Assembly (NCBI RefSeq): GCF_004328705.1
Contig: NZ_CP035319.1
Location: 1,922,001 to 1,986,000 of the forward strand
Direction of reading: 5' to 3'
DNA from: Rhodococcus sp. ABRD24
Lineage (GTDB): Bacteria > Actinomycetota > Actinomycetes > Mycobacteriales > Mycobacteriaceae
DNA length: 64,000 nucleotides
Positions 43,917-56,410 of this stretch are shown here, in pieces. The stretch's first letter is position 1, and each line of letters begins with the position of its first letter. The notes below the pieces were generated by a model, which did not search any database, was not told where the DNA came from, and saw only the letters and a list, made by a program, of their open reading frames with translations. The translations under genes were made by a program, and so were the position numbers.

Positions 43917-44588
43917 CTATCGGTCGAGCGAATCTTCCAGCACCGCCGTCACCGCCGCGCGGACGCCCTCGATAACCGGAACCGGCGACTCCGCCTCGAT
44001 GGCAGGCGCCAACGGGGCCATCGATGCGCAACCGAGACAGACCGCCCCTGCGCCATCGACCTCGACACAGCTACGAATGACTGCGATCGCCTCCTCGAGA
44101 GCCGCGGCCGGATCGCGTGCAATGTCGAGCACCGATATGCCCAGCGGTCGAACGCTCGCCAACGCATCCCCGAATCCGTATCGCGCAGCCAGCTCCGTCA
44201 TCAGGGTGACGGCACTGGGCATCGCGCACACAATCGAGAATCTGCCGCCCGCGTTCTGGGCGGCCCGCATTGCCTGTAGTGCGATGCCGTGGACCGGAAG
44301 TCCTGTTGCAGAACGTAACTCGTCGACGCCGGGATCTCCGAAGCATGAGACGACTGCGATGTCGAAGCCAATATCCGCACTCCAGCTGCGCGCCGACGCC
44401 AGCATGGTTCCGATCGCAACCTGTTCGTCCGCCGCAGTCTCGATCGCGGAGGGGCCGATCTCGGGATTGACCGCGACGATGTCGAGTGCGGATGCGCCCG
44501 GCGTCCCGTGGGCAGCGCTCGAGATGATCCTCGTCATCTCCGAGGTGGTGTTGGGATTGATCAGCAGCAGCCTTGTTTTCGTGGTCAC
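43917..44588 (-). CDS. Aspartate/glutamate/hydantoin racemase-family protein
   Basis: A 223-residue racemase with the signature LLLINPNTTSEMT at the start and the two catalytic cysteines in VVSCFGDPG and AVCLGCASM. Hydantoin and allantoin racemases interconvert 5-substituted hydantoin enantiomers, so a stereospecific hydantoinase can use both forms. GTG 44588 overlaps the hydantoinase stop by four bases (GTGA), so it is the third gene of a coupled operon: permease, hydantoinase, racemase. Confidence 0.88.
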   Translation of the reverse strand: MTTKTRLLLINPNTTSEMTRIISSAAHGTPGASALDIVAVNPEIGPSAIETAADEQVAIGTMLASARSWSADIGFDIAVVSCFGDPGVDELRSATGLPVHGIALQAMRAAQNAGGRFSIVCAMPSAVTLMTELAARYGFGDALASVRPLGISVLDIARDPAAALEEAIAVIRSCVEVDGAGAVCLGCASMAPLAPAIEAESPVPVIEGVRAAVTAVLEDSLDR

Positions 44589-46003
44589 AGGCGGGTGATC
44601 TCTCCGGCGGGGAAGGGACCCGTCGAACGGTGGATGTACCGTCCGCGGCCGGGGGTGCTCAGTACCTCACCGTCGGCGAACACCGTCGTCCCCCTGCTCA
44701 AGACCTGGATCGGCGCCCCGGTGCAGGTCCAGCTCTCGAACGGGGTGTAGTCCACCGCCATGTGGTGGCTCTTGGCCGAGATTTCCAGTGTGGCTTCGGG
44801 ATCGAATACGACGATGTCCGCGTCGAAGCCCGGGGCGATCCGGCCCTTCGAGGTCAGGCCGAACATTCGGGCGGGCGAGGTGGAGGTGGTGGCCACCAGC
44901 TCCGACATGGTCATCCGCCCGGTCCGAACACCGTGCTGGTGCAGCAGGGGAAGTCGGTGCTCGATCGTGGGCAGCCCGTTCGGGATCTTCGAGAAGTCCT
45001 CGCGGCCGAGTTCCTTCTGTCCGCAGAAGTTGAACGGACAGTGGTCGGTGGTGACGATCTGCAGCGACTGCTGCCGCAACGCGGACCAGAGCACATCCTG
45101 GTCATGTTCGTGGCGCAGCGGCGGCGAACACACGAACTTCGCGCCGTCGAAATCCGGTCGCGCGAGTTCTTCCTCGGTGAGAGTCAGGTAATGCACGCAG
45201 GTTTCACCGAACACCGGAAGCCCGCGCGAGCGCGCCGACTGGATCTCGTGCACGGCCCGGGCCGAGGAGACGTGGACGACGAAGATCGGCCGCTTGGCCC
45301 ACGACGCCAGGTGAATGGCGCGCGCGGTCGCCTCCTGCTCGGTCGTGTCCGGGCGGGTCGTCGCGTGCGAGTAGGGCGAGATGTCACCGCGTGAGAGCGC
45401 GTCGTCGATGTTGAGATCGATGGCGTCACCATTCTCCGCATGCACCTGGACCAGGCCGCCTACCTCACCGGTACGGCGCAGGACGCGCAGCAACTGCTGG
45501 TCGTCGGCCATGAACGACCCCTTGAAGGCCATGAACACCTTGAAGGAGCTGACGCCGCGGGCGACGGCCTGCTCCATCTCCTCGATCGCCAGCGGCGACG
45601 CATCGGTGATGGCAACGTGGAAGCCGTAGTCGATGTGAGCCTTGTTGCGCGCGTTGTCCATCCACGTGTCGATTCCCGCGAGCACCGACCCGTCGGTCTG
45701 CATCGCGAAGTCGACGATCGAGGTGGTGCCACCCGCGGCTGCCGCCGCGGTGCCGGTGTCGAAGTCATCCGCGGTGACCGTGCCCATCGTCGGCATCTCC
45801 AGATGGGTGTGACTGTCGACCAGGCCCGGCAGCAGCTGACACCCACCCACGTCGATCACTCGGCCGGCCGCATCCGAGAGGTCGACATCCAGGGCCAGCA
45901 CCCGCCCGTCTTCGATGAGGATATCGGCCCTGGCCTCGCCCTCGGCGGACACGATGGTCCCGCCTCGGAGAATGACCCTGGTGTCCTCTGCCTGTGCCGT
46001 CAT
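44585..46003 (-). CDS. D-hydantoinase / dihydropyrimidinase-family amidohydrolase
   Basis: A 472-residue cyclic amidohydrolase. Metal ligands are all present: H65 and H67 in DSHTHLE, the carbamylated Lys (about K155) in SSFKVFMAFKG, His in VQVHAENGD, His in FVVHVSSA and Asp in VTTDHCPF. It opens cyclic amide rings such as hydantoins to N-carbamoyl amino acids. The substrate side chain cannot be read; the neighbouring diaminopropionate lyase hints at an amino-substituted compound. ATG 46003 overlaps the permease stop (TAATG). Confidence 0.93.
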   Translation of the reverse strand: MTAQAEDTRVILRGGTIVSAEGEARADILIEDGRVLALDVDLSDAAGRVIDVGGCQLLPGLVDSHTHLEMPTMGTVTADDFDTGTAAAAAGGTTSIVDFAMQTDGSVLAGIDTWMDNARNKAHIDYGFHVAITDASPLAIEEMEQAVARGVSSFKVFMAFKGSFMADDQQLLRVLRRTGEVGGLVQVHAENGDAIDLNIDDALSRGDISPYSHATTRPDTTEQEATARAIHLASWAKRPIFVVHVSSARAVHEIQSARSRGLPVFGETCVHYLTLTEEELARPDFDGAKFVCSPPLRHEHDQDVLWSALRQQSLQIVTTDHCPFNFCGQKELGREDFSKIPNGLPTIEHRLPLLHQHGVRTGRMTMSELVATTSTSPARMFGLTSKGRIAPGFDADIVVFDPEATLEISAKSHHMAVDYTPFESWTCTGAPIQVLSRGTTVFADGEVLSTPGRGRYIHRSTGPFPAGEITRL

Positions 46004-47580
46004 TACTGTGACTCCGATCGTTCCGATTCGAGTTCGGCAAGTTCTTCACCCGTGGTACCGCTCGGCACAAAGGTCGACCCCAGTGAACTGCGACGCGCGA
46101 GCGGCAGGATGGCGAAGTACCCGGCGAAGCCTAGGACGACACCCAGCACCGCAGCGTACTCATAGGCCCAGCCAATTGCCGGGATCCACTGGCCGAGGAT
46201 GCAGAATACCGACATCGCGATCAGCACGCCGAGCGTCCACCAGTTGTATCCGCGGTAGCCTTCATACTGTGAGCCCCGGCGATAGAGTGCCGGAACGTCC
46301 AGCCGGCCTCGCCTGACCAAGTAGTAGTCAGCGATGAGAATGCCTGTGGCAGGGCCGATCACGGCTCCCACATTGTTGAGCACGGAGAACAGCGTGTCGG
46401 GCGACTCCATGAGTTTCCACGGCATGAAGGCGAATCCGGCGAGGATACTCAGCACAGCGGCCCGCTTGAAGTTCAAGAACTTCGGGAACAGATTCGTGAA
46501 GTCGAACGCAGGGGAGATGATGTTCGCCGCCAGGTTCACCGACATTGTCGCGACCGCGATGCAGATCGCACCGATGATCGACACCCACGGGTTGTCGATG
46601 GCGACCAGCACGTCCGCCGGGTTCCACAGCAGCTCGCCGGTCGCGGCCTGAGTACCTGAGACGACGATCGCGGCCATCGCGTAGAAGACGAGCGTGGCAA
46701 GCGGAAGACCGTAGAACAGTCCGGTGACCTGGGCGCGGTTCGACTTCGCGTAGCGGGTGATGTCAGGCAGGTTGAGCACCATCGTCGCCCAACTCGCCGA
46801 GATGAAGAGCGCTACACCCGGCAGCAGGCCGTGCAGCAGGAAGTCACTGCTGGAGCCGAACTGCGATCCCTGGTCGAAGATGGGACCCAAGCCGTCCATC
46901 TGCATGAACGACCACACCACGAGGGGCACCATCACGACGAAGATCAGCGGGCCTGCCCAGCCCTCGAAGCGACGGATGGTCTCCATACCGTGCCGGATCA
47001 GCAGCAGGTTCAGCGCCCAGTAGATGATCATCGACACCCACAGGTTCATTGCAACCCCGCCGACCACGGTGTTCCAGTCCCGCCAGGCCGAGAAGCTGGT
47101 CTCGAGCAGCACGTTGATGGCCGTCGCGCCCAGATAGGACTGGACACCGAACCAGCCGATGGCGACCACTCCGCGCAGGGCAGCAGGGATGTTCGCGCCC
47201 AGCACGCCGAAGGTCGAGCGGGCCCAGACCGCGAACGGGATTCCGTACCGCGAGCCGACGCGACCGGTCAGGCCCATCAGGCCCATCTGGATGATGTTTG
47301 CGACGAAGACGACGGCGAGGGCCTGGACGACGGACATACCCGTCGCCATCATGCCGCCGATCACCGCGAATCCGAATGCGCTGTGGACCATTCCCATCCA
47401 CAGCGCGGCGAAGCTCCAAGCGCCCCAGGTCCGTTGCTGAACGGGCACTGGTAACAGGTCGTCGTTCGTCAGGCCAGGGTCGTACGTCAGGCCGGAGCCG
47501 TTCGGTCCGGCGGGGGCGCCGGTTCCCGACCAGTCGGCGGAGTCGGGGCCCTCCGGCCCCTTGATCAGGTCTGTGGACAT
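46003..47580 (-). CDS. NCS1-family nucleobase/hydantoin permease (Mhp1-like)
   Basis: A 525-residue transporter with about twelve membrane helices. NCS1 features include the N-terminal TNDDLLPVPVQQRTWGAWSF, ALRGVVAIGWFGVQSYLGA with the substrate-stacking Trp, and ANIISPAFDFTNLFPKFLNF. Mhp1 of Microbacterium imports 5-substituted hydantoins with Na+; together with the next two genes this makes hydantoin-type uptake the best guess. ATG 47580 lies behind AAGGAGG. The upstream region contains a TGACAGTTGTCATACAA operator-like site. Confidence 0.92.
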   Translation of the reverse strand: MSTDLIKGPEGPDSADWSGTGAPAGPNGSGLTYDPGLTNDDLLPVPVQQRTWGAWSFAALWMGMVHSAFGFAVIGGMMATGMSVVQALAVVFVANIIQMGLMGLTGRVGSRYGIPFAVWARSTFGVLGANIPAALRGVVAIGWFGVQSYLGATAINVLLETSFSAWRDWNTVVGGVAMNLWVSMIIYWALNLLLIRHGMETIRRFEGWAGPLIFVVMVPLVVWSFMQMDGLGPIFDQGSQFGSSSDFLLHGLLPGVALFISASWATMVLNLPDITRYAKSNRAQVTGLFYGLPLATLVFYAMAAIVVSGTQAATGELLWNPADVLVAIDNPWVSIIGAICIAVATMSVNLAANIISPAFDFTNLFPKFLNFKRAAVLSILAGFAFMPWKLMESPDTLFSVLNNVGAVIGPATGILIADYYLVRRGRLDVPALYRRGSQYEGYRGYNWWTLGVLIAMSVFCILGQWIPAIGWAYEYAAVLGVVLGFAGYFAILPLARRSSLGSTFVPSGTTGEELAELESERSESQ

Positions 47581-47727
47581 CACATGGCCTCCTTAGTCAT
47601 TGCCAGCCGGGTGGACGTCACATCAGACGCGACCGCGACTCGAGTTCACGTCCCACGACGACCTCGGACCGCCCAGGAATTCTTCGGCGACTGGGGCCCT
47701 CCGGTGGAAGTACGGCAACTGTGCCCG

Positions 47728-47746
47728 CTTGTATGACAACTGTCAA
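47728..47746 (-). promoter_or_regulatory. GntR operator-like site 1 (permease operon)
   Basis: On the reverse strand the sequence is TTGACAGTTGTCATACAAG. It shares 18 contiguous bases with site 3 at 51612. TGACA-GT-TGTCA is an inverted repeat, and TTGACA could be the -35 element, so a bound repressor would block RNA polymerase. Confidence 0.65.
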
Positions 47747-47878
47747 TAGTCAAATATCTCCACCCGTCATTGCTCGGTAAATCCGCAACCGGACGAAAAG
47801 GTGCACGTCGGAGCCTTGTCATCAGATCGAAAAGCGGCAGCCATCCCTTCCCAAGATGACACATCACATGGTATGAAC

Positions 47879-47897
47879 ATGACAGTTGTCCTACAGG
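47879..47897 (+). promoter_or_regulatory. GntR operator-like site 2 (deacylase operon)
   Basis: ATGACAGTTGTCCTACAGG differs from sites 1 and 3 at a few positions and lies 15 bases before the start of the amidohydrolase gene, between promoter and ribosome binding site (TCAGGAGA). Confidence 0.55.
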
Positions 47898-47911
47898 TAG
47901 TCAGGAGAAAA

Positions 47912-49519
47912 ATGGATGCCGCACTGGTAATCCGCAATGCCGATGTCGTGACCTCGGACGCCGTCCGCCGGGCAGATGTTCTCGTCGACAACGGCCGGAT
48001 CGTCGGCGTCGGGCCCAACCTGCCGGTGGGCTCGACCGCTCGGAGCATCGATGCCGAGGGCAAACTGCTCTGCCCGGGCTTCGTCGACCTGCACGCCCAC
48101 TCCGCGCTGCGCCCGTTCGACGACCCACTGCTCTCGGCAAAGGTCACGCAGGGCTTCACCACGGACCTGATCTGCCCCGACGGGCTCGGCCCGGCACCGG
48201 TCTCGGATACGACCGTGGCGACCCGCCGTCGCTACCTGCAGGGTCTGGAGCCGAGCGCCGCCGCCCGGTGGCACTGGCGGTCGATGTCGTCCTACCTGGC
48301 AGCATTGCAGGAGGCCGGGCCCGCCCTGAACATGGCGAGTTGCGTCCCGCACAGCGCGGTGCGCGAGTGCGTGATGGGAAATGCGAACCGCGCTCCCGAC
48401 CAGCGTGAGATGTCCGAGATGAAGGATCTTGTCGCCGAATGCCTTGCCGCGGGGGCAAGAGCAGTGTCCTTCGGCATGATCTACGCCCCCGGTCTGTACG
48501 CCGGAACCGACGAACTGCTGCAGATCGCGGAAGTCGCCGCCGAGTACAACGTCCCGCTGATCCCGCACGTGCGCAACGAAGCCGAGGGTGTGGTCGACTC
48601 GATCTCGGAATTCGTCCGCGTCGCCGAACTCACCGGTGCCCCGCTGCACGTCTCCCACGTCAAACTGGTCGGGGTCCCACACCTGCTCACCGCCCTGCTC
48701 GACACGCTCTCGTCCGCGCAGAATCGTATCCGCTTGACCTGCGACCAGTACCCCTACGGCGCGGGAAGCACGCTGCTGTCGGCACTGCTGCCCGGCTACG
48801 CCTTCGAGGGTGGGCCGCAAGCGACGCTCGAAAGGCTGGGCGATCGGACCGAACGCGACCGGATGGCCAGGGACATGCACCAAGGACTGCCGAACTGGGA
48901 AAATCTCTTCGGAGCCTGCGGCCCCGACAACATCGTCATCACCCAGGCGGCCGCACCGCGAACCGAGACGATGTCGCAGACCGTGGCCCAGATCGCGGCG
49001 GAAACCGACAGCGATCCAGCGTTCGCGGTAATGGACTTGCTGCGTGATACCGAACTCGACGCTTGCATGATCGACCACTACTCGACCGAGACGGTGGTGC
49101 GCGAGATCTTCACTTCCTCCGGCGCGCTGGTCGGCTCCGACGGGGTCTTCAACCCGCACCCACACCCCCGGCTGTACGGGACGGCACCCCGCGTCCTGGG
49201 CCGCTATGCCCTGCGGGAGAAGCTGATCACCGTCACCGAGGCAGTCCGGCGATTGAGTACCGGCCCGGCGCAGGTACTCGGTTTGAGCGACCGCGGTGAG
49301 ATCGCCGAGGGCAAGCGTGCGGATCTTGTGCTCATAGACCCCGCAAGCTACATCGACACCGCAACCTACGACCACCCGCATTCCCAGCCTCCCGGCGTCG
49401 AACTTGTCACTGTCGGCGGCGTGCCCGTCGTGGAAGCCGGACGGCACACCGGCCGCCGTCCCGGCGTCGTCGAGGGTGGGGCAGGTACCCACAACCCAGC
49501 CGCGGGCGGTGCTCGATGA
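47912..49519 (+). CDS. N-acyl-D-amino-acid deacylase-family amidohydrolase
   Basis: A 535-residue amidohydrolase of D-aminoacylase type. It shows DLHAHSALRPFDD (metal His pair), HSAVRECVMG, IPHVRNEAEG and HVSHVKLVG, then the lid/active-site block SDGVFNPHPHPRLYGTAPRV. The family removes acyl groups from N-acyl-D-amino acids, and relatives act on N-carbamoyl or dihydropyrimidine-like substrates. ATG 47912 follows TCAGGAGA. It overlaps the next gene by four bases (ATGA) and is divergent from the permease operon. Confidence 0.87.
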   Translation: MDAALVIRNADVVTSDAVRRADVLVDNGRIVGVGPNLPVGSTARSIDAEGKLLCPGFVDLHAHSALRPFDDPLLSAKVTQGFTTDLICPDGLGPAPVSDTTVATRRRYLQGLEPSAAARWHWRSMSSYLAALQEAGPALNMASCVPHSAVRECVMGNANRAPDQREMSEMKDLVAECLAAGARAVSFGMIYAPGLYAGTDELLQIAEVAAEYNVPLIPHVRNEAEGVVDSISEFVRVAELTGAPLHVSHVKLVGVPHLLTALLDTLSSAQNRIRLTCDQYPYGAGSTLLSALLPGYAFEGGPQATLERLGDRTERDRMARDMHQGLPNWENLFGACGPDNIVITQAAAPRTETMSQTVAQIAAETDSDPAFAVMDLLRDTELDACMIDHYSTETVVREIFTSSGALVGSDGVFNPHPHPRLYGTAPRVLGRYALREKLITVTEAVRRLSTGPAQVLGLSDRGEIAEGKRADLVLIDPASYIDTATYDHPHSQPPGVELVTVGGVPVVEAGRHTGRRPGVVEGGAGTHNPAAGGAR

Positions 49520-50715
49520 CCACCGAAAGGCTCTTCGATATCGAGGAAACAGATGTCGCCGCAACACTGTTGGCGCTGATTGCCGCGTCCAGCGTGTCGC
49601 CCTCCGCGGAACCCGCGGCCCGTTTGCTGACCGAGCTGCTGACCAAATCGGGGTTCGAGGTGACCGTCGACGACTGGGGCAACGTGACCGGGCGGATCGA
49701 CTTCGGCCCCGGTCCGGTGCTGCTCTACGACGCCCATCTGGACACCGTCGAGATCGGTGATCATGCACGCTGGCGGCATGATCCGGCCGGCGAGCGGGTC
49801 GGCGACAGAATCGTGGGCCGGGGCGCCGTCGACACCAAGGGGCCGCTGGCGGCGGCCCTCCATGCCGCCCAGCGGCTCGTCGCCGACCCTGACGGGCTCG
49901 CCGGGAGCCTGGTGATATCCGGGTCGGTCGACGAGGAGCTCGCGGAAGGACCCGCGCTCGCTCAGATCCTGGACCGGGTGACCCCGGATGTGGTGGTCAT
50001 CGGCGAACCCTCCGACAACCGGCTGGCCGTGGGCCAGCGTGGCCGCGCGGAGATCGTCGTCGAGGTCACCGGGACGTCCTCGCACACCGCCTACCCCGAC
50101 GCTGGGGTCAGCGCCGTCGAGGTGATGGCCGAGGCAATAGTCGCGTTGCGCGAGCTCACCTTTCGCGCCGACCCACACCTCGGCGCCGGGCAGCTCACCC
50201 TGACCAGTGTGCGATCCTCGCCGTATCCGAGCCAGTCGACGGTGCCGTCCGGCTGCGTCGCGGTGTTCGACCGCCGGACGGTGGTCGGAGAGCAGGATGT
50301 CGAGGTTCTCGACGATGTCCGGCGGATGGTCGAACCGATCGCTGCGGCAGCCGGCGCATCGGTGCAGGTGCGACTCGCCCGCGCCGAGTGGCGGACCTGG
50401 CGGGGCGTGGAAGTGGATGTTCCGGTCTTCGCCGCGGCGTGGTTCCAGGATCCCGGCGCCTGGCCCGTCGATGCGATCCGGGATCAGTTGCGCCGCGCGG
50501 GGGTAGACCGTCCAACGAGGACGTGGCAATTCTGCACCAATGGATCCGAGAGCGCCGGCCGGCGCGGACTGCCCACCGTGGGTTTCGGTCCCGGACAACC
50601 GGATCGAGCGCACACCACCGACGAGTCGATCGAGCTCGCCGAGCTGCGCTCCGGCGTGGACGGTTACGAGGCGATCTTTCGGGGGGTGCTCGGCGGCGGT
50701 GGGCGGTCCCGGTGA
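49516..50715 (+). CDS. M20-family metallohydrolase (ArgE/DapE/YgeY-like)
   Basis: A 399-residue zinc hydrolase. It shows LLYDAHLDTVEIGD (metal His and catalytic Asp), GRGAVDTKGPLAAA (bridging Asp), SGSVDEELAEGPA (Glu-Glu pair) and GEPSDNRLAVGQRGR (metal Asp), a dimerisation lid, and RAHTTDESIEL with the last His. M20 enzymes cut N-acyl or N-carbamoyl amino acids and small dipeptides; the motif set resembles YgeY, which accompanies a diaminopropionate lyase and hydantoinase in E. coli. ATG 49516 overlaps the preceding stop. Confidence 0.88.
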   Translation: MTTERLFDIEETDVAATLLALIAASSVSPSAEPAARLLTELLTKSGFEVTVDDWGNVTGRIDFGPGPVLLYDAHLDTVEIGDHARWRHDPAGERVGDRIVGRGAVDTKGPLAAALHAAQRLVADPDGLAGSLVISGSVDEELAEGPALAQILDRVTPDVVVIGEPSDNRLAVGQRGRAEIVVEVTGTSSHTAYPDAGVSAVEVMAEAIVALRELTFRADPHLGAGQLTLTSVRSSPYPSQSTVPSGCVAVFDRRTVVGEQDVEVLDDVRRMVEPIAAAAGASVQVRLARAEWRTWRGVEVDVPVFAAAWFQDPGAWPVDAIRDQLRRAGVDRPTRTWQFCTNGSESAGRRGLPTVGFGPGQPDRAHTTDESIELAELRSGVDGYEAIFRGVLGGGGRSR

Positions 50716-50737
50716 CTCCGTTCGCCCAGCTGCGCCG

Positions 50738-51523
50738 TCAGCCCTCCCGGCGGCGGCGCAGCTGGAATACGAATGCATCCGGGAGCAGCCAGGCCTCGCT
50801 GCGGTTGACGATCTCCCCGGTGTCGTCGCGGGTGAGCTCGCTCAGTTGGAGCAGGGCCGTCGACTCGGTCGTGCCGAAGTGCTTCTGCAGCTCGGCGTCG
50901 GCGACCACCGGGGTGATCGTGCAGTCGGAGTAGGCCGCGCCGTCACGTTCGAGAAGCAGATCCAGGACCGATCCGGTGAAGTGCCGTGTCAGCTCGTCGG
51001 TGCTCATCACCTCGTCGGGGACGTAGTCCACGATCCAGGCCACCACCGACCCGTCGATGAGTTTGGTGCGGCTGATCCGCGTTACGCCCATGGCCGACTC
51101 GAATACCGCGGCGAGCTCGTCCTCATCGCGGTCGAGATGGACGATCTCGACGGCACCGGTGTCGATCCGGGTACCGGAGTTGGCGGCAAAGGTGTCGAAC
51201 GAGACGAGCCGATCGAGACCGGAGTGAATCGACTCCGGCCTGGGCAGCACCCAGGACCCCGACCCGCGCACGATCCGGATGTACCCCGCGTCCTTGAGCC
51301 CCTGCATGGCCGTTCGGATGGTCACCCGAGAGGCACCGAAGATCTCGCACAGCTCCGCCTCCGAGGGCATCTTGTCGCCGGGCGCCAGGCGCCCCGACAG
51401 GATGAACTCACTGAGGAGCGTCTCCCTGATCTCGGACTGCAATGGACGGCGGGCACGGATCCGCGAGATGTCCTTGCTCGTCGTCGATCGCGTCGACTTC
51501 GACCGGGTTGTCGAGGGCGCCAC
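50738..51523 (-). CDS. GntR-family regulator, HutC/UTRA type
   Basis: A 261-residue regulator. The N-terminal winged helix contains PLQSEIRETLLSEFILSGRL, GDKMPSEAELCEIFGASRVT and IRTAMQGLKDAGYIRIVRGS. The C-terminal UTRA domain binds a small ligand (VTRISRTKLIDGSVVAWIVD, SELTRDDTGEIVNRSEAWLL). It probably represses the surrounding hydantoin/amino-acid genes and is released by a pathway compound. GTG 51523 follows GAGGAGG; a longer frame to 51805 would cover the operator and the next gene start and is rejected. Its own promoter faces site 3. Confidence 0.9.
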   Translation of the reverse strand: MAPSTTRSKSTRSTTSKDISRIRARRPLQSEIRETLLSEFILSGRLAPGDKMPSEAELCEIFGASRVTIRTAMQGLKDAGYIRIVRGSGSWVLPRPESIHSGLDRLVSFDTFAANSGTRIDTGAVEIVHLDRDEDELAAVFESAMGVTRISRTKLIDGSVVAWIVDYVPDEVMSTDELTRHFTGSVLDLLLERDGAAYSDCTITPVVADAELQKHFGTTESTALLQLSELTRDDTGEIVNRSEAWLLPDAFVFQLRRRREG

Positions 51524-51611
51524 GTATCCACCTCCTCGATCCTTGCCGGGTACGGCGGCGCCCGCAGCGCCTGAAGTACAAGCAGCATAACAGAACCGCA
51601 GAATAAGTATC

Positions 51612-51630
51612 TTGACAGTTGTCATACAAC
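51612..51630 (+). promoter_or_regulatory. GntR operator-like site 3 (lyase operon and gntR)
   Basis: TTGACAGTTGTCATACAAC shares 18 contiguous bases with site 1. TTGACA followed 17 bases later by TACCGT (51635-51640) forms a plausible promoter for the lyase gene, so the operator overlaps the -35. The site also sits upstream of the divergent gntR start. Confidence 0.65.
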
Positions 51631-51666
51631 TATCTACCGTGATGAGCAGTCGAAAGGAACCCAATC

Positions 51667-52806
51667 GTGCGTGAACCCCGAGTTGTATCCAACCCCCTCG
51701 TCGCGCCGTCGCAGGTCGGCCCGCTGACTGCCGATCCCACCGCGTTCCACCGAACGCTGCCCGGCTACGAGCCGACCCCACTGGTCGAGTCCCCCCAGTC
51801 CGCACGGCGCCTCGGAGTCGCCGCGGTGCACGTCAAGGACGAGTCCGCGCGGCTCGGGATGCCGTCCTTCAAGGTGCTCGGCGCTTCCTGGGCCACCTAC
51901 CGAGTCCTGTTGCGCCACTTGGGTTCGAGTCCCGAAGAGATCCCCACCCTCGATGCCCTCGCCACCCGACTGGCCGGCTCGAACCTGCGCCTGTGCGCGG
52001 CCACCGACGGCAACCACGGTCGGGCGGTTGCCCGAATGGCCCAGCTCCTGGGCCTGCGCGCCATCATCCTGGTCCCCGCGGACATGGTCGACGAACGCAT
52101 CGCGGCCATCCGCAGCGAGGGCGCCGACGTCGAGGTGGTCGACGGCGGCTACGACGACGCGATCGCGCGCAGCGCCGCACTGGCTTCGGACGACACCCTC
52201 GTCGTGTCCGACACTTCCTGGGACGGCTACGTCGATCCACCGATGTGGGTCATCGACGGGTACTCGACGATGATCGCCGAGATCCGAGACCAATACCGAG
52301 ACAAGGGCTTGTCCGCACCGACCGTGGTCGCGGCCCAGATCGGCGTCGGAGCGTTCGCCGCCGCCGTCGCCCGCGGCTTCGCCGAACACGACGGCGTGCA
52401 CCTCGTCGGGGTGGAACCGACTCAGGCCGACTGTGTCACGGCCAGCATCGAGGCCGGAGGAGTCCTGACCATCCCAGGCCCGCAGCTGTCGATGATGGCC
52501 GGACTCAATTGCGGCACACCATCGATCATTGCCTGGCCGGACGTCTCGTCCGGGTACCAGACCTTCGTGACCATCAGCGACGAACAGGCGGCCGACGCAA
52601 TGCGACTGCTGGCGGCCGACGGAGTGGTCTCCGGGGAGAGCGGTGCCGCCGGACTCGGCGGATTGCTCGCGCACGCCGACGCCCTCGGACTGGGGCCCTC
52701 CGACTCGGTCCTGGTGATCTCCACCGAAGGCGCCACCGATGTGGCCAACTATCGAACGATCGTCGGCGCCGCACCGGCGGCAGTGACGGCACCGGCGAAG
52801 GGATGA
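51667..52806 (+). CDS. Diaminopropionate ammonia-lyase-like PLP enzyme (YgeX family)
   Basis: A 379-residue fold-type II PLP enzyme. It shows GYEPTPLVESPQSARRLGVA, the PLP Lys in RLGMPSFKVLGASW, ATDGNHGRAVARMAQLLG, SDTSWDGYVDPPMWVIDGYS, GVEPTQADCV, MMAGLNCGTPS, and the phosphate loop region SGESGAAGLGG. This order and wording match diaminopropionate ammonia-lyase, which turns 2,3-diaminopropionate into pyruvate and two ammonia. Threonine dehydratase-like activity is the alternative. GTG 51667 follows AAAGGAACC. The carbamoylase gene starts four bases after its stop. Confidence 0.9.
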   Translation: MREPRVVSNPLVAPSQVGPLTADPTAFHRTLPGYEPTPLVESPQSARRLGVAAVHVKDESARLGMPSFKVLGASWATYRVLLRHLGSSPEEIPTLDALATRLAGSNLRLCAATDGNHGRAVARMAQLLGLRAIILVPADMVDERIAAIRSEGADVEVVDGGYDDAIARSAALASDDTLVVSDTSWDGYVDPPMWVIDGYSTMIAEIRDQYRDKGLSAPTVVAAQIGVGAFAAAVARGFAEHDGVHLVGVEPTQADCVTASIEAGGVLTIPGPQLSMMAGLNCGTPSIIAWPDVSSGYQTFVTISDEQAADAMRLLAADGVVSGESGAAGLGGLLAHADALGLGPSDSVLVISTEGATDVANYRTIVGAAPAAVTAPAKG

Positions 52807-52810
52807 GCCG

Positions 52811-54088
52811 ATGAACACGAACACTGCGCACACCGCGACACTGCGCGTGGACGCCGATCGCCTGTGGAACTCACTGAGCGAACTCGGCGAGGTCGGTGCG
52901 TTCGAGGACGCCGACACCGGTCTGCGAGGCGTGCGCCGGCTCGCATTGACCGATGACGACGTCGCGGGCCGTCAGCTCGTAGTGGGCTGGATGCACGAGG
53001 CAGGCCTGGCGGTCCGCCTCGACGAGGCCGGCAACGTCTACGCCCGGCGCGCCGGCGCGGACGACTCGCTCGCCCCGGTGATGGTCGGCAGCCACATCGA
53101 CAGTGTCGCCACTGCCGGGCGGTTCGACGGATGCCTGGGGGTGCTCGGCGGCCTGGAGATAGTCCGGACCCTGAACGACCACGGCATCACCACACAGCGG
53201 CCGATCGAAGTAGCCATCTTCAGTGAGGAGGAGGGAGCGCGTTTCGGCACGGACATGCTCGGCAGTGCGACGGCCGCCGGCCGGATCGAACTCGCGGACG
53301 CCCGCGCCCGGACCGACCGGGACGGTGTCACGTTCGGTGCGGAGCTGGACCGCTACGATCTCGTGGGCACCCAGCGCGTCCCGATGCCGGTCGCGCCGTA
53401 CGCCTACCTCGAATGCCATATCGAACAGGGTCCGATTCTCGAAGCGAATCAATCGGAAATCGGCGTGGTGCAAGGCGTCCAGGCGATCACCTGGTTGGAA
53501 CTCGAGATTGTCGGCCGGGCCGCGCACGCCGGAGCCACCCCCAACGCCCTGCGCCACGACGCCGAACTGGCCGCGGCACTGGTCCGGGTGCGGCTCGACG
53601 AAATGGTCACCTCCGGCGACTACGGGGCCATGCTGGCGACGGTCGGGCGACACGAGACCCACCCGAACCTGATCAACATCGTGCCCTCGCACGTCCTGCT
53701 CACTGTCGACCTCCGCAATCACGATGACTCCGAGATGACGCGGGCCGAGACCGACCTCACCAACTTCTTCCACGAGGTGGAGCAGCAGGTGGGCGTGACG
53801 ATCACGCACCGAACGACGGCCAAGACCCCACCGGTGCGCTTTCCCGACAGTATGCAGGACCTGGTCGCGAAATGCGCTGCAAACCTGGGATTTCGGCACG
53901 AGGTGATCACCTCGGGAGCCGGTCACGATGCGGGAGAGATCGCCGCACTGTGTCCGGCGGGCATGGTCTTCGTCCCCGGGCTCTACGACGGGATCAGCCA
54001 CAATCCTCGGGAGTACTCGACGCCGGAGGCCTGCGCCAACGGGATCAATGTCCTCCTCAGTGCCGTAATCGAACTCGCAGGCGAATAG
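52811..54088 (+). CDS. M20-family amidase, hydantoinase/carbamoylase type
   Basis: A 425-residue Zn-dependent amidohydrolase of the N-carbamoyl-L-amino-acid hydrolase / allantoate amidohydrolase group. It shows GVRRLALTDDDVAGRQLVVG, MVGSHIDSVATAGRFDGCLG (metal His, Asp), IFSEEEGARFG (Glu pair), ECHIEQGPILEANQSEIGVV (metal His), GRAAHAGATPNALRHDAEL, and GAGHDAGEIAALCPAGMVFV. It would release CO2 and ammonia from N-carbamoyl amino acids made by the hydantoinase. The chiral preference cannot be read. It forms a two-gene operon with the lyase. Confidence 0.92.
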   Translation: MNTNTAHTATLRVDADRLWNSLSELGEVGAFEDADTGLRGVRRLALTDDDVAGRQLVVGWMHEAGLAVRLDEAGNVYARRAGADDSLAPVMVGSHIDSVATAGRFDGCLGVLGGLEIVRTLNDHGITTQRPIEVAIFSEEEGARFGTDMLGSATAAGRIELADARARTDRDGVTFGAELDRYDLVGTQRVPMPVAPYAYLECHIEQGPILEANQSEIGVVQGVQAITWLELEIVGRAAHAGATPNALRHDAELAAALVRVRLDEMVTSGDYGAMLATVGRHETHPNLINIVPSHVLLTVDLRNHDDSEMTRAETDLTNFFHEVEQQVGVTITHRTTAKTPPVRFPDSMQDLVAKCAANLGFRHEVITSGAGHDAGEIAALCPAGMVFVPGLYDGISHNPREYSTPEACANGINVLLSAVIELAGE

Positions 54089-54186
54089 CGGGCGCGCTCG
54101 GTCCTGTTTCGAGCCGCACGAGTTCGGCGGTTGCAGGGGTCCATCCTTATTTCATTGGTCGGATTTGCCGATCTCGTGAAAGAACT

Positions 54187-54203
54187 GGACAGTTGGTCTA
54201 CAG
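54187..54203 (+). promoter_or_regulatory. Weak match to the GntR site before the phospholipase C gene
   Basis: GGACAGTTGGTCTACAG resembles site 2 (TGACAGTTGTCCTACAG) at most positions, but the second half of the inverted repeat is changed. TACAGT at its end may be a -10 element. The resemblance could be chance. Confidence 0.25.
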
Positions 54204-54241
54204 TCTCGTGTTGGATCGATCAATGCGACAGTGGAGCCGAC

Positions 54242-56410
54242 GTGACCCGAAAGACCCTCTCCCGGCGCGGGTTTCTCGCTGCCGGTGCCGGAGTGGCTGC
54301 CGCTGTTGCTGCCGGCTCGCTTCTGCCGCCGTCACTGCAACGTGCCCTGGCCGCGCCCGTACCTCCGGGCGGGCTCGACTCGATCGAACATGTCGTTCTC
54401 CTCATGCAGGAGAACCGATCCTTCGACCACTACTACGGAACGTTGCGCGGAGTACGGGGGTTCGCCGATCCCAATGCGCTGCGACTGCGGGGCGGAGCCC
54501 CCGTCTTCGAACAACCTGGCCCGAACGGTCCGGTGCTGCCGTTTCCGATCCGGGACTCCGCCGCCGCACAGCGCATGGACGTCCAGAACGTCACCGGCCT
54601 CGATCACAGCTGGGATGGCGGACACCAGGCCCTCGCGGACGGCTGGCACGACGGCTGGATCGCAGCCAAGACCGCCACGGCCATGGCCCATTACGACCGG
54701 CAGGACATTCCGTTCCACTACGAACTCGCTGACGCATTCACGATCTGCGACGCCTACCACTGCTCGGTGCCGACATCGACCAGCCCCAACCGCAACTACT
54801 GGGTGTCCGGGTACACCGGATTCGAACCCCCCGGCATCAATCCGTTCGGCTCGATGGATTCGCTGGGGGTGTCCGGGTCGTCGGAACCGGCCGGTCCCGA
54901 GGGGCGCGCCGTCACCAACGCTGCCTACAACCCCTGGCACGCCGGCTACGGGTGGACCACAGTCCCGGAGCGGCTGCAGGCCGCCGGCATCAGCTGGAAG
55001 ACGTACCAGGAGTGGGACAACTTCGGAGACAACAACCTCGAGTACTTCACCACCTTCAAGAAGGTAGCGGCCGGACTGCTCGGTCAACCCAGCCTGCTGC
55101 CCTACGAGCTGCAGACTCTCGCGGGCTTCTATCTGGCCCTTCCGGAATTGCCGACCGCCGCCCAGGACGTGGCGGTGCGCGCGCTCGAGACAGCCGCGGA
55201 TCGTCTTTCACCGGCAGACCGGCAGCTCTACGACCGCGCGCTGTACCGGTCGCGACCCGGCACGCTCGCCGCCGAGTTCCGGAAGGACGTCGAGTCGGGC
55301 AGGCTGCCGCAGGTCAGCTACCTGGTTCCGTCGGAGGTCGACTCGGAGCATCCGTCCGGCTCGTCACCGGCGGCGAGCGCGACGCTGCTCTACCAAGTAC
55401 TCGATGCCATTGCCTCCGACCCGGCTCTCTGGGCGAAGACGGCCGTGATCGTCAACTTCGACGAGAACGACGGCTACTTCGACCACGTGCCGCCGCCCCG
55501 TCCCCCGCTCTCGGCCAGTACGGAGTGGGTCGCGGGTCAGCCGCTCGGTCTCGGGCCCCGCGTGCCGATGACGATCATCTCGCCCTGGACCGTGGGGGGA
55601 TTCGTCTGCTCGCAGGTGTTCGACCACACGTCGGTGGTGCAGTTCCTGGAGAAGCGATTCGGGATCGCACAGCCGGAAATCGACCCGTGGCGGCGCACGG
55701 TCAGTGGGGATCTGACCTCAGCATTCGACTTCGGCAACCCGCGTAGCCGGCCGAACCTCACCCGCCCGCAGCCGACCCCGCCGTTGGAGCCGAGATGGAC
55801 ACCGACTCCACCGATCGAGCAGCGAATGCCGCTACAGGAGAGCGGCACCCGGCCGGCTCGGGCGCTGCCGTACCAGCCCGACGCATACGCGTCCGTGAAC
55901 TCCGGCGCTCGCTCCCTGACGGTACATCTGGTCAACACCGGCGCCGAATCGGCACATCTGAGCCTGTATCCGTACGCGGGAGAGTTCGACATACCCCGGC
56001 ACTACGACGTCCTCGGTACTGCCGAGGACACGGTTACCCTGTCCGGTCCGCAGTACGACTTGACCATGTTGGGCCCCAATGGTTTCCGGCGCGAGTTCAC
56101 CGGTTCGATCGATGGCCCAGCGGCCACACTCGAACTGTCCAGCCGAGTCGACTCAGCGGACGGCACGCTCACCCTGACCGCGAAGAACCCGGGAACCCGC
56201 GCGCTGACCGTTGCGCTGGACAGTCAGCGCCGTCGAGTCGCGGCAGGCAGCCGGGAATCGTGGACGGTGCGGGCGGTGGACGGCTGGTATCAGGCCACCG
56301 TGACCGTCGACGAGGACCCGGACTTCCGTCGCCGACTCGTCGGACACATCGAGAACGGGCGGGACAGCGTCAGCCAGCCGACGCAAGCCGGCGAGATGAC
56401 GTTGCGTTAG
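54242..56410 (+). CDS. Tat-exported phospholipase C, phosphocholine type
   Basis: A 722-residue enzyme with a Tat signal (TLSRRGFLAAGAG) and the phosphoesterase domain of bacterial PlcH/PlcA enzymes. It shows IEHVVLLMQENRSFDHYYGT with metal ligands and the catalytic Thr region, ADAFTICDAYHCSVPTSTSP, IVNFDENDGYFDHVPPP and PMTIISPWTVGGF. Two C-terminal DUF756 beta domains follow (about 560-710). It hydrolyses phosphatidylcholine and often sphingomyelin outside the cell. GTG 54242 has GGAGCC upstream. An endoglycoceramidase gene follows 28 bases later, so both probably act on host or environmental membrane lipids. Confidence 0.92.
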   Translation: MTRKTLSRRGFLAAGAGVAAAVAAGSLLPPSLQRALAAPVPPGGLDSIEHVVLLMQENRSFDHYYGTLRGVRGFADPNALRLRGGAPVFEQPGPNGPVLPFPIRDSAAAQRMDVQNVTGLDHSWDGGHQALADGWHDGWIAAKTATAMAHYDRQDIPFHYELADAFTICDAYHCSVPTSTSPNRNYWVSGYTGFEPPGINPFGSMDSLGVSGSSEPAGPEGRAVTNAAYNPWHAGYGWTTVPERLQAAGISWKTYQEWDNFGDNNLEYFTTFKKVAAGLLGQPSLLPYELQTLAGFYLALPELPTAAQDVAVRALETAADRLSPADRQLYDRALYRSRPGTLAAEFRKDVESGRLPQVSYLVPSEVDSEHPSGSSPAASATLLYQVLDAIASDPALWAKTAVIVNFDENDGYFDHVPPPRPPLSASTEWVAGQPLGLGPRVPMTIISPWTVGGFVCSQVFDHTSVVQFLEKRFGIAQPEIDPWRRTVSGDLTSAFDFGNPRSRPNLTRPQPTPPLEPRWTPTPPIEQRMPLQESGTRPARALPYQPDAYASVNSGARSLTVHLVNTGAESAHLSLYPYAGEFDIPRHYDVLGTAEDTVTLSGPQYDLTMLGPNGFRREFTGSIDGPAATLELSSRVDSADGTLTLTAKNPGTRALTVALDSQRRRVAAGSRESWTVRAVDGWYQATVTVDEDPDFRRRLVGHIENGRDSVSQPTQAGEMTLR

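Follow-up and report, generated by a model that had tools for sequence, protein, structure and literature searches.

The present analysis concerns an eight-gene catabolic cluster in the genome of Rhodococcus sp. ABRD24, lying within a stretch of 64,000 nucleotides (contig NZ_CP035319.1, positions 1,922,001 to 1,986,000; hereafter the window, to whose first letter all positions refer). The cluster encodes a permease of the NCS1 type, a D-hydantoinase, an Asp/Glu/hydantoin racemase, an amidohydrolase of the N-acyl-D-amino-acid deacylase family (DAA), a YgeY-type M20 hydrolase, a GntR/UTRA regulator, a diaminopropionate ammonia-lyase (DAPAL) of the YgeX family, and a second M20 enzyme of the HyuC type (Table 1). 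With a probability that we place at roughly 0.55, it represents a freestanding lower half of the reductive urate pathway, salvaging 5-ureidomethylhydantoin (UMH) or 2,3-diureidopropionate (DUPA). The pathway is that of Li et al. (2025, PMC12507026). There, HyuA opens UMH to DUPA, either YgeW or UacY, the latter a D-aminoacylase homolog of the Amidohydro_3 family from C. difficile, carries DUPA on to albizziin, and YgeY and YgeX convert albizziin to pyruvate; in vitro, hydantoinase, UacY, YgeY, and YgeX take UMH to pyruvate. The window holds a member or an analog for each of these four steps, and its hydantoinase scores above the TIGR02033 cut-off, as the HyuA of a urate cluster would. An initial annotation made from the sequence alone had regarded this set of activities as lacking a known precedent, and that view has to be given up since the 2025 pathway provides one. 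Its general idea of a substrate linked to hydantoins and diaminopropionate still stands, but its suggestion of an aminomethyl-hydantoin is superseded, because the published route from UMH uses hydantoinase, UacY, YgeY, and YgeX and a ureido compound, i.e. UMH or DUPA, is therefore likelier. The logic of the cluster is now largely explained by that pathway, and its novelty would lie in a lower half that stands alone, with dedicated import and regulation and a proposed stereochemical solution.

Kinship with enzymes of urate clusters is indicated by sequence for both DAPAL and YgeY. The lyase is 37% identical to E. coli YgeX, and its K69, D114, and D182 align with K77, D120, and D189 of YgeX, which we take to be the catalytic residues, so that all three are kept. 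In a tree of 27 rows, these being the sequences that the searches happened to bring, it falls inside a 14-row clade (support 100/100) with DAPALs of full or partial actinobacterial urate clusters. One member, G453:C97, comes from a locus with YgfK, SsnA, HyuA, a selenium-type XDH, YgeW, and YgeY. The G454:C4 locus resembles it, and at L076 and L077 YgeW and YgeY adjoin DAPAL. The proposal of diaminopropionate as a metabolite in the initial annotation finds support in the NF006058 match, which makes it the likely compound reaching the lyase. As a separate observation, the Dermatophilaceae metagenome-assembled genome (MAG) G453 has two loci (L134 and L135, on G453:C97 and G453:C236) with DAPAL, XDH, HyuA, SsnA, and YgfK, L135 ending within the ygfK match; this may reflect duplication or a mixed bin.

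The YgeY-type hydrolase was placed in a 20-row tree with its root at the midpoint and three DapE-like rows outside, where it lies on the branch of Cetobacterium YgeY (97/94). The YgeYs accompanied by YgeW or a YgeW-like gene, from E. coli, Actinomycetota, and Chloroflexota (with YgeW matches 33–36% identical at the three Chloroflexota loci), form a separate branch (97/93). Identity of the window YgeY is 36% (234 bits) to the Cetobacterium enzyme versus 32% (163 bits) to that of E. coli. The two branches, as far as these sequences go, seem to follow the partner enzyme, of YgeW or UacY type, and the split could help to predict pathway variants. The Cetobacterium somerae clusters are found on plasmids from catfish intestine and zebrafish (L244:12514-28388 and L251:9514-25388), in the order dpaL-ygeY-D-aminoacylase-ssnA with an XDH-like enzyme and hydA further down, which is the UacY layout, and the trait of urate reduction is plasmid-borne in this species. 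A plasmid-borne copy of the window cluster was considered and rejected, as a search of the plasmid collection yielded nothing at or above 60% identity. In common with the UacY variant of the pathway, known from C. difficile (PMC12507026) and C. somerae, the window has a hydantoinase, an Amidohydro_3 D-aminoacylase, a DAPAL, and a YgeY of the same branch, but it adds HyuC, racemase, NCS1 permease, and GntR. The E. coli ygeW-ygeX-ygeY-hyuA-...-xdhD cluster (L142) shares homologs of YgeX, YgeY, and HyuA (37, 32, and 40% identical, respectively) with the window, whose hydantoinase has its best PDB matches among D-hydantoinases. It differs in having the carbamoyltransferase YgeW where the window has a hydrolytic deacylase, in its sigma-54-type regulator YgeV (as annotated), and in the presence of the upstream half.

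According to the 2025 commentary PMC12990295, it is not settled in which order the ureido groups are cleaved or what the stereochemistry of the pathway is. Two deacylases of the window bear on this. The best PDB matches of DAA are N-acyl-D-glutamate deacylase and D-aminoacylase, and the PDB relatives of the HyuC enzyme include a hydantoinase/carbamoylase family amidase, N-carbamoyl-L-amino-acid hydrolase, and allantoate amidohydrolase. Deacylases of the DAA type are expected to be specific for D substrates and those of the HyuC type for L substrates. We propose from these similarities that DAA is an N-carbamoyl-D-amino-acid hydrolase and HyuC an N-carbamoyl-L-amino-acid hydrolase, the carbamoylase and the D-deacylase most plausibly forming a stereochemical pair. 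According to PMC12507026, the E. coli enzyme YgeX works equally well on D- and L-diaminopropionate, and a D/L pair upstream of a non-stereospecific lyase would explain the presence of two deacylases of opposite expected stereochemistry in one core. The permease would thus import UMH, the racemase would interconvert its enantiomers, and the hydantoinase would open the ring to DUPA, from whose D form DAA would take the 2-ureido group, as UacY does in C. difficile, with HyuC doing the same for the L form. YgeY, proposed on its tree position to be an albizziin (3-ureido) hydrolase, would then release the 3-ureido group from the albizziin so formed, leaving D- or L-diaminopropionate for DAPAL to convert to pyruvate and ammonia. 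We infer all of these substrates and the division of labor between D and L, as well as the GntR binding and inducer considered below. With its presumed D- and L-specific activities encoded by two different genes, the cluster offers enzymes for the question raised in PMC12990295 of which ureido group is removed first and which stereoisomer results.

The genes are organized as three catabolic units and a single gntR, with permease, hydantoinase, and racemase on the minus strand and DAA-ygeY and DAPAL-hyuC on the plus strand. All eight genes recognized in the initial annotation are present with their families matched by profile scores, and its picture of compact transcription units around one GntR/UTRA gene is upheld by overlaps of 4 bp (racemase/hydantoinase), 1 bp (hydantoinase/permease), and 4 bp (DAA/ygeY) and a gap of 4 bp between DAPAL and hyuC. 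A repeat found in the intergenic DNA, TGACAGTTGTC[A/C]TACA with the core TGACA-GT-TGTC[A/C], constitutes a 16-bp candidate operator, and three exact copies occur in the window, one ahead of each catabolic unit, compared with 0.03 expected in shuffles allowing up to 2 mismatches. The whole 5.1 Mb genome contains three exact copies, all at the cluster, and three sites with 2 mismatches elsewhere, where a reversed-pattern control gives five. The pattern was derived from these same three sites, so other genomes provide the independent test. In all eight syntenic loci described below, counterparts stand ahead of DAA (1–2 mismatches) and ahead of DAPAL (seven exact, L065 with 3 mismatches), and both Gordonia loci with a permease carry an exact operator ahead of it (L064 and L065, with an additional operator-like site elsewhere at 3 and 2 mismatches, respectively). 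L039 has 2 sites, with 1 and 0 mismatches, against 0.07 expected; six non-syntenic loci were also scanned, four of which had none and two (L075 and L083) one each with 3 mismatches. Because the operators recur in place in other genomes, the prediction of one GntR-controlled regulon covering all three units, and with it the co-regulation foreseen in the initial annotation, is well supported. The regulator combines a GntR DNA-binding domain and a UTRA domain alongside the repeated operator, and its protein would act at the three sites, with a pathway compound as inducer releasing all three units together. The DAPAL and permease operators are preceded by T, so that they read TTGACA, and a promoter scan of the region gave no sigma-70-like match over the operators. 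A fourth sequence resembling the operator (54187-54202), weaker than the others with its 3 mismatches, is situated just 3′ of hyuC and inside an open reading frame (ORF) at 54131-56410 and is probably a chance match.

Table 1. Genes and proposed operators of the cluster, in window coordinates.
Feature	Position	Strand	Supporting match
Asp/Glu/hydantoin racemase	43917..44588	-	PF01177 (Asp_Glu_race) 162 bits
D-hydantoinase (HyuA type)	44585..46003	-	TIGR02033 566 bits, cut-off 393
NCS1 nucleobase/hydantoin/allantoin-type permease	46003..47583	-	PF02133 (Transp_cyt_pur) 320 bits
Proposed GntR operator, precedes permease-hydantoinase-racemase unit	47730..47745	-	TGACAGTTGTCATACA, exact
Proposed GntR operator, precedes DAA-ygeY unit	47880..47895	+	TGACAGTTGTCCTACA, exact
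N-acyl-D-amino-acid deacylase family amidohydrolase (DAA)	47912..49519	+	PF07969 (Amidohydro_3) 107 bits on longer frame 47801-49519
YgeY-type M20 hydrolase	49516..50715	+	NF009555 312 bits, cut-off 321
GntR/UTRA regulator	50738..51523	-	PF00392 56 bits and PF07702 43 bits on longer frame to 51805
Proposed GntR operator, precedes DAPAL-hyuC unit	51613..51628	+	exact
Diaminopropionate ammonia-lyase (DAPAL, YgeX family)	51667..52806	+	NF006058 343 bits, cut-off 276; PALP 205 bits
HyuC/allantoate-amidohydrolase-type M20 enzyme	52811..54088	+	TIGR01879 carbamoylase 381 bits, cut-off 204

A two-sequence DAPAL alignment, used to scan genome contigs, identified 20 loci, and in eight of them (L064-L071; DAPAL identity 66–78%) the core DAA-YgeY-GntR-DAPAL-HyuC is found in the same order, with GntR/UTRA orthologs at 61–76%. 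These eight comprise two Gordonia records, one of Saccharopolyspora oryzae, and five of Nocardia, including three of N. carnea. One N. carnea record, L068, probably corresponds to G034, a relative from the same family as the window genome, and so not every syntenic locus is independent of the query. No DAA was found at the other 12 DAPAL loci, some of which are on short contigs. The co-occurrence envisaged in the initial annotation thus holds for the core, and to a lesser degree for the remaining genes, with hydantoinase and NCS1 permease in two of the eight loci, both Gordonia, and a racemase ortholog in one (L064, 55% identity; none at E 1e-8 in the other seven). In place of these, the six loci from Nocardia and Saccharopolyspora encode a sodium-solute symporter between ygeY and gntR, and there the core might operate on DUPA or another N-carbamoyl- or N-acyl-diaminopropionate taken up by that symporter. 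The distribution is rare and patchy: no DAPAL of the window type was found in 13 other genomes of the genus, a DAPAL of at least 67% identity occurs in 2 of 394 genomes of the class (4 candidates scored per genome), and a DAA of at least 70% in 2 of 397 genomes of the order (3 candidates scored per genome), its own genome being included in both counts. Relatives of DAA among the best 120 of 1287 matches include proteins from Rhodococcus sp. T7 (82%), a Gordonia (80%), and Arthrobacter (70%).

Several observations weigh against assigning the cluster to the urate pathway. One group concerns its upstream half, for which Li et al. use SsnA as a marker (PMC12507026). Neither SsnA (TIGR03314) nor YgfK (up to 35 candidates scored per genome) exceeds its cut-off in any of the seven cluster-bearing genomes searched, i.e. 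the window's own, which alone has a stated completeness (100), and those of L064, L065, L066, L067, L069, and L071; both do so in both positive MAG genomes. The genome therefore offers no known source of UMH. No XdhD-type molybdoenzyme or UacX is encoded among the eight cluster genes, neither having been searched for genome-wide. A second group concerns the strength of the enzyme assignments. The window DAPAL does not reach the narrower, stringent TIGR03528 cut-off (265 vs 532), and YgeY misses NF009555 by 9 bits and TIGR03526 more widely (205 vs 322), whereas a Nocardia ortholog passes the former at 331. The YgeY tree had one UacY-type organism only. Branch order inside the DAPAL clade is not resolved, and the lyase of L127, an urate-type cluster from the same phylum (L127:9179-20000, G812; SsnA, YgfK, XDH, DAPAL, YgeY, and YgeW), groups with E. 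coli YgeX outside the clade, from which it follows that two DAPAL lineages serve urate clusters in this phylum. DAA is 31% identical to the D-aminoacylase (UacY) of the Cetobacterium urate cluster, a distant homolog, and the tree places other sequences closer to DAA; the motif columns HxH, Lys, YPYxAGST, Asp, and Arg are common to both, and the motif Cys of DAA is Gly in UacY. The tree as read excludes L157, L158, L231, L232, L235, and L241, which were in the wrong frame or strand and had no BLAST match to the window DAA; L155 and L236 were not among its rows, and the bootstrap was not settled. Near SsnA, a window-type DAA was found in none of 40 Chloroflexota regions at E 1e-10 (these representing 41 of 43 listed SsnA matches) and in none of 23 actinobacterial SsnA regions (20 of 24 matches of the SsnA search and three from the cluster-genome search), nor in any of 32 rows at E 1e-8 made up of 28 regions, these 23 among them, and four other loci. 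DAA was not accepted as an ortholog of UacY, given the separation in the tree and these counts of 0/40 and 0/32, and may be regarded on family and context as its analog.

A third group of observations could also be accounted for by a different substrate with the same end product, the core freeing 2,3-diaminopropionate from N-acyl (acetyl, oxalyl, or aminoacyl) derivatives made by plants or microbes, with the Gordonia-type addition serving only to extend its range to hydantoins. Six of the eight syntenic loci keep the core without hydantoinase, NCS1 permease, or racemase, and the resemblance of DAA to N-acyl-D-amino-acid deacylases fits this explanation as well. YgeY and DAPAL are found beside a GMC oxidoreductase, an aldehyde dehydrogenase, and an enolase-superfamily enzyme in Nocardioides islandensis (L073:3220-11083) and a Mycolicibacterium MAG (L075:2-8068, which also has a DHDPS-family enzyme); both lyases belong to the DAPAL clade of the window, and neither locus shows urate genes or a match to DAA or HyuC. 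The same-branch YgeY and DAPAL beside such sugar-type dehydrogenases make other diaminopropionate derivatives possible, and these two loci perhaps represent a different route to one. Two Deinococcus plasmids (L242:8084-11122 and L243:8828-11131) also pair an ArgE/DapE-type M20 gene with a following DAPAL, L242 with a divergent GntR gene; these M20 enzymes fall outside the YgeY rows of the tree. We nevertheless regard the N-acyl explanation, the main alternative, as rather unlikely, since HyuC is a member of the hydantoinase/carbamoylase amidase subfamily and the YgeY of a urate-type cluster, which cleaves a ureido group in the published scheme, shares the branch of the window YgeY.

If the cluster does represent a lower half of the urate pathway, the apparent absence of the upstream steps that SsnA and YgfK mark implies that the compound comes from outside or by another route. 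UMH has been detected in E. coli culture supernatants (PMC12507026), so leakage is possible, and leaked UMH could feed the source organism of the window. It is conceivable, at somewhat less than even odds, that presumably aerobic actinomycetes scavenge UMH or DUPA leaked by urate-reducing anaerobes, using a dedicated regulon and handling both enantiomers through DAA and HyuC. Salvage of this kind would mean that the pathway has a free-standing lower half and that its intermediates are nutrients for other bacteria, and cross-feeding in particular would place one half of the pathway apart from its origin and out of sight of surveys based on the SsnA marker. For DAPAL/YgeY/deacylase clusters annotated merely as ‘D-aminoacylase’ or ‘ArgE/DapE deacylase’, the analysis points to a function, and it gives a dedicated regulator with a defined candidate operator. 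A literature search restricted to titles and abstracts, with subscription journals and preprints outside its reach, met no such cluster outside the urate pathway among the entries listed.

The cluster could alternatively serve general use of hydantoins and N-carbamoyl amino acids, as a classical hyu system joined by a D-deacylase, with beta-substituted alanines, serine-like or otherwise, as side substrates of DAPAL. All four parts of the classical hyu operons with an Mhp1-type permease are present together under the shared operator, i.e. hydantoinase, carbamoylase, racemase, and NCS1 permease. In the window, however, HyuC is in a separate unit with DAPAL and is kept without a hydantoinase in six of the eight syntenic loci, and DAPAL, YgeY, and DAA are extra. 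This alternative is quite improbable as it leaves DAPAL and YgeY unexplained, both in the regulon and in an eight-locus core of which only two loci have the hydantoinase and permease. Utilization of allantoin or allantoate is more improbable still and was rejected, even though permease, hydantoinase, and M20 enzyme match models of allantoin permease, allantoinase, and allantoate amidohydrolase. The scores are below cut-off (316/620 for the permease with PRK11375, 293/358 for allantoinase, and 433/452 for NF006769), as is that of the permease with TIGR00800 (313 bits), and a urate oxidase match occurs in three of the seven cluster-bearing genomes but not in that of the window. No role in allantoin breakdown is known for DAPAL or YgeY, which also counts against this use.

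Minor features of the region may be added. Later starts are favored for DAA (ATG at 47912) and gntR (GTG at 51523) because a Shine-Dalgarno-like sequence precedes each, that of gntR being GAGGAGGT just upstream. The Peptidase_M20 scores of the two M20 enzymes are 77 and 94 bits. No tRNA was found in the window as an island marker, and the GC content of the cluster region, 62–68% in 2-kb steps, is inside the range of the rest of the window.

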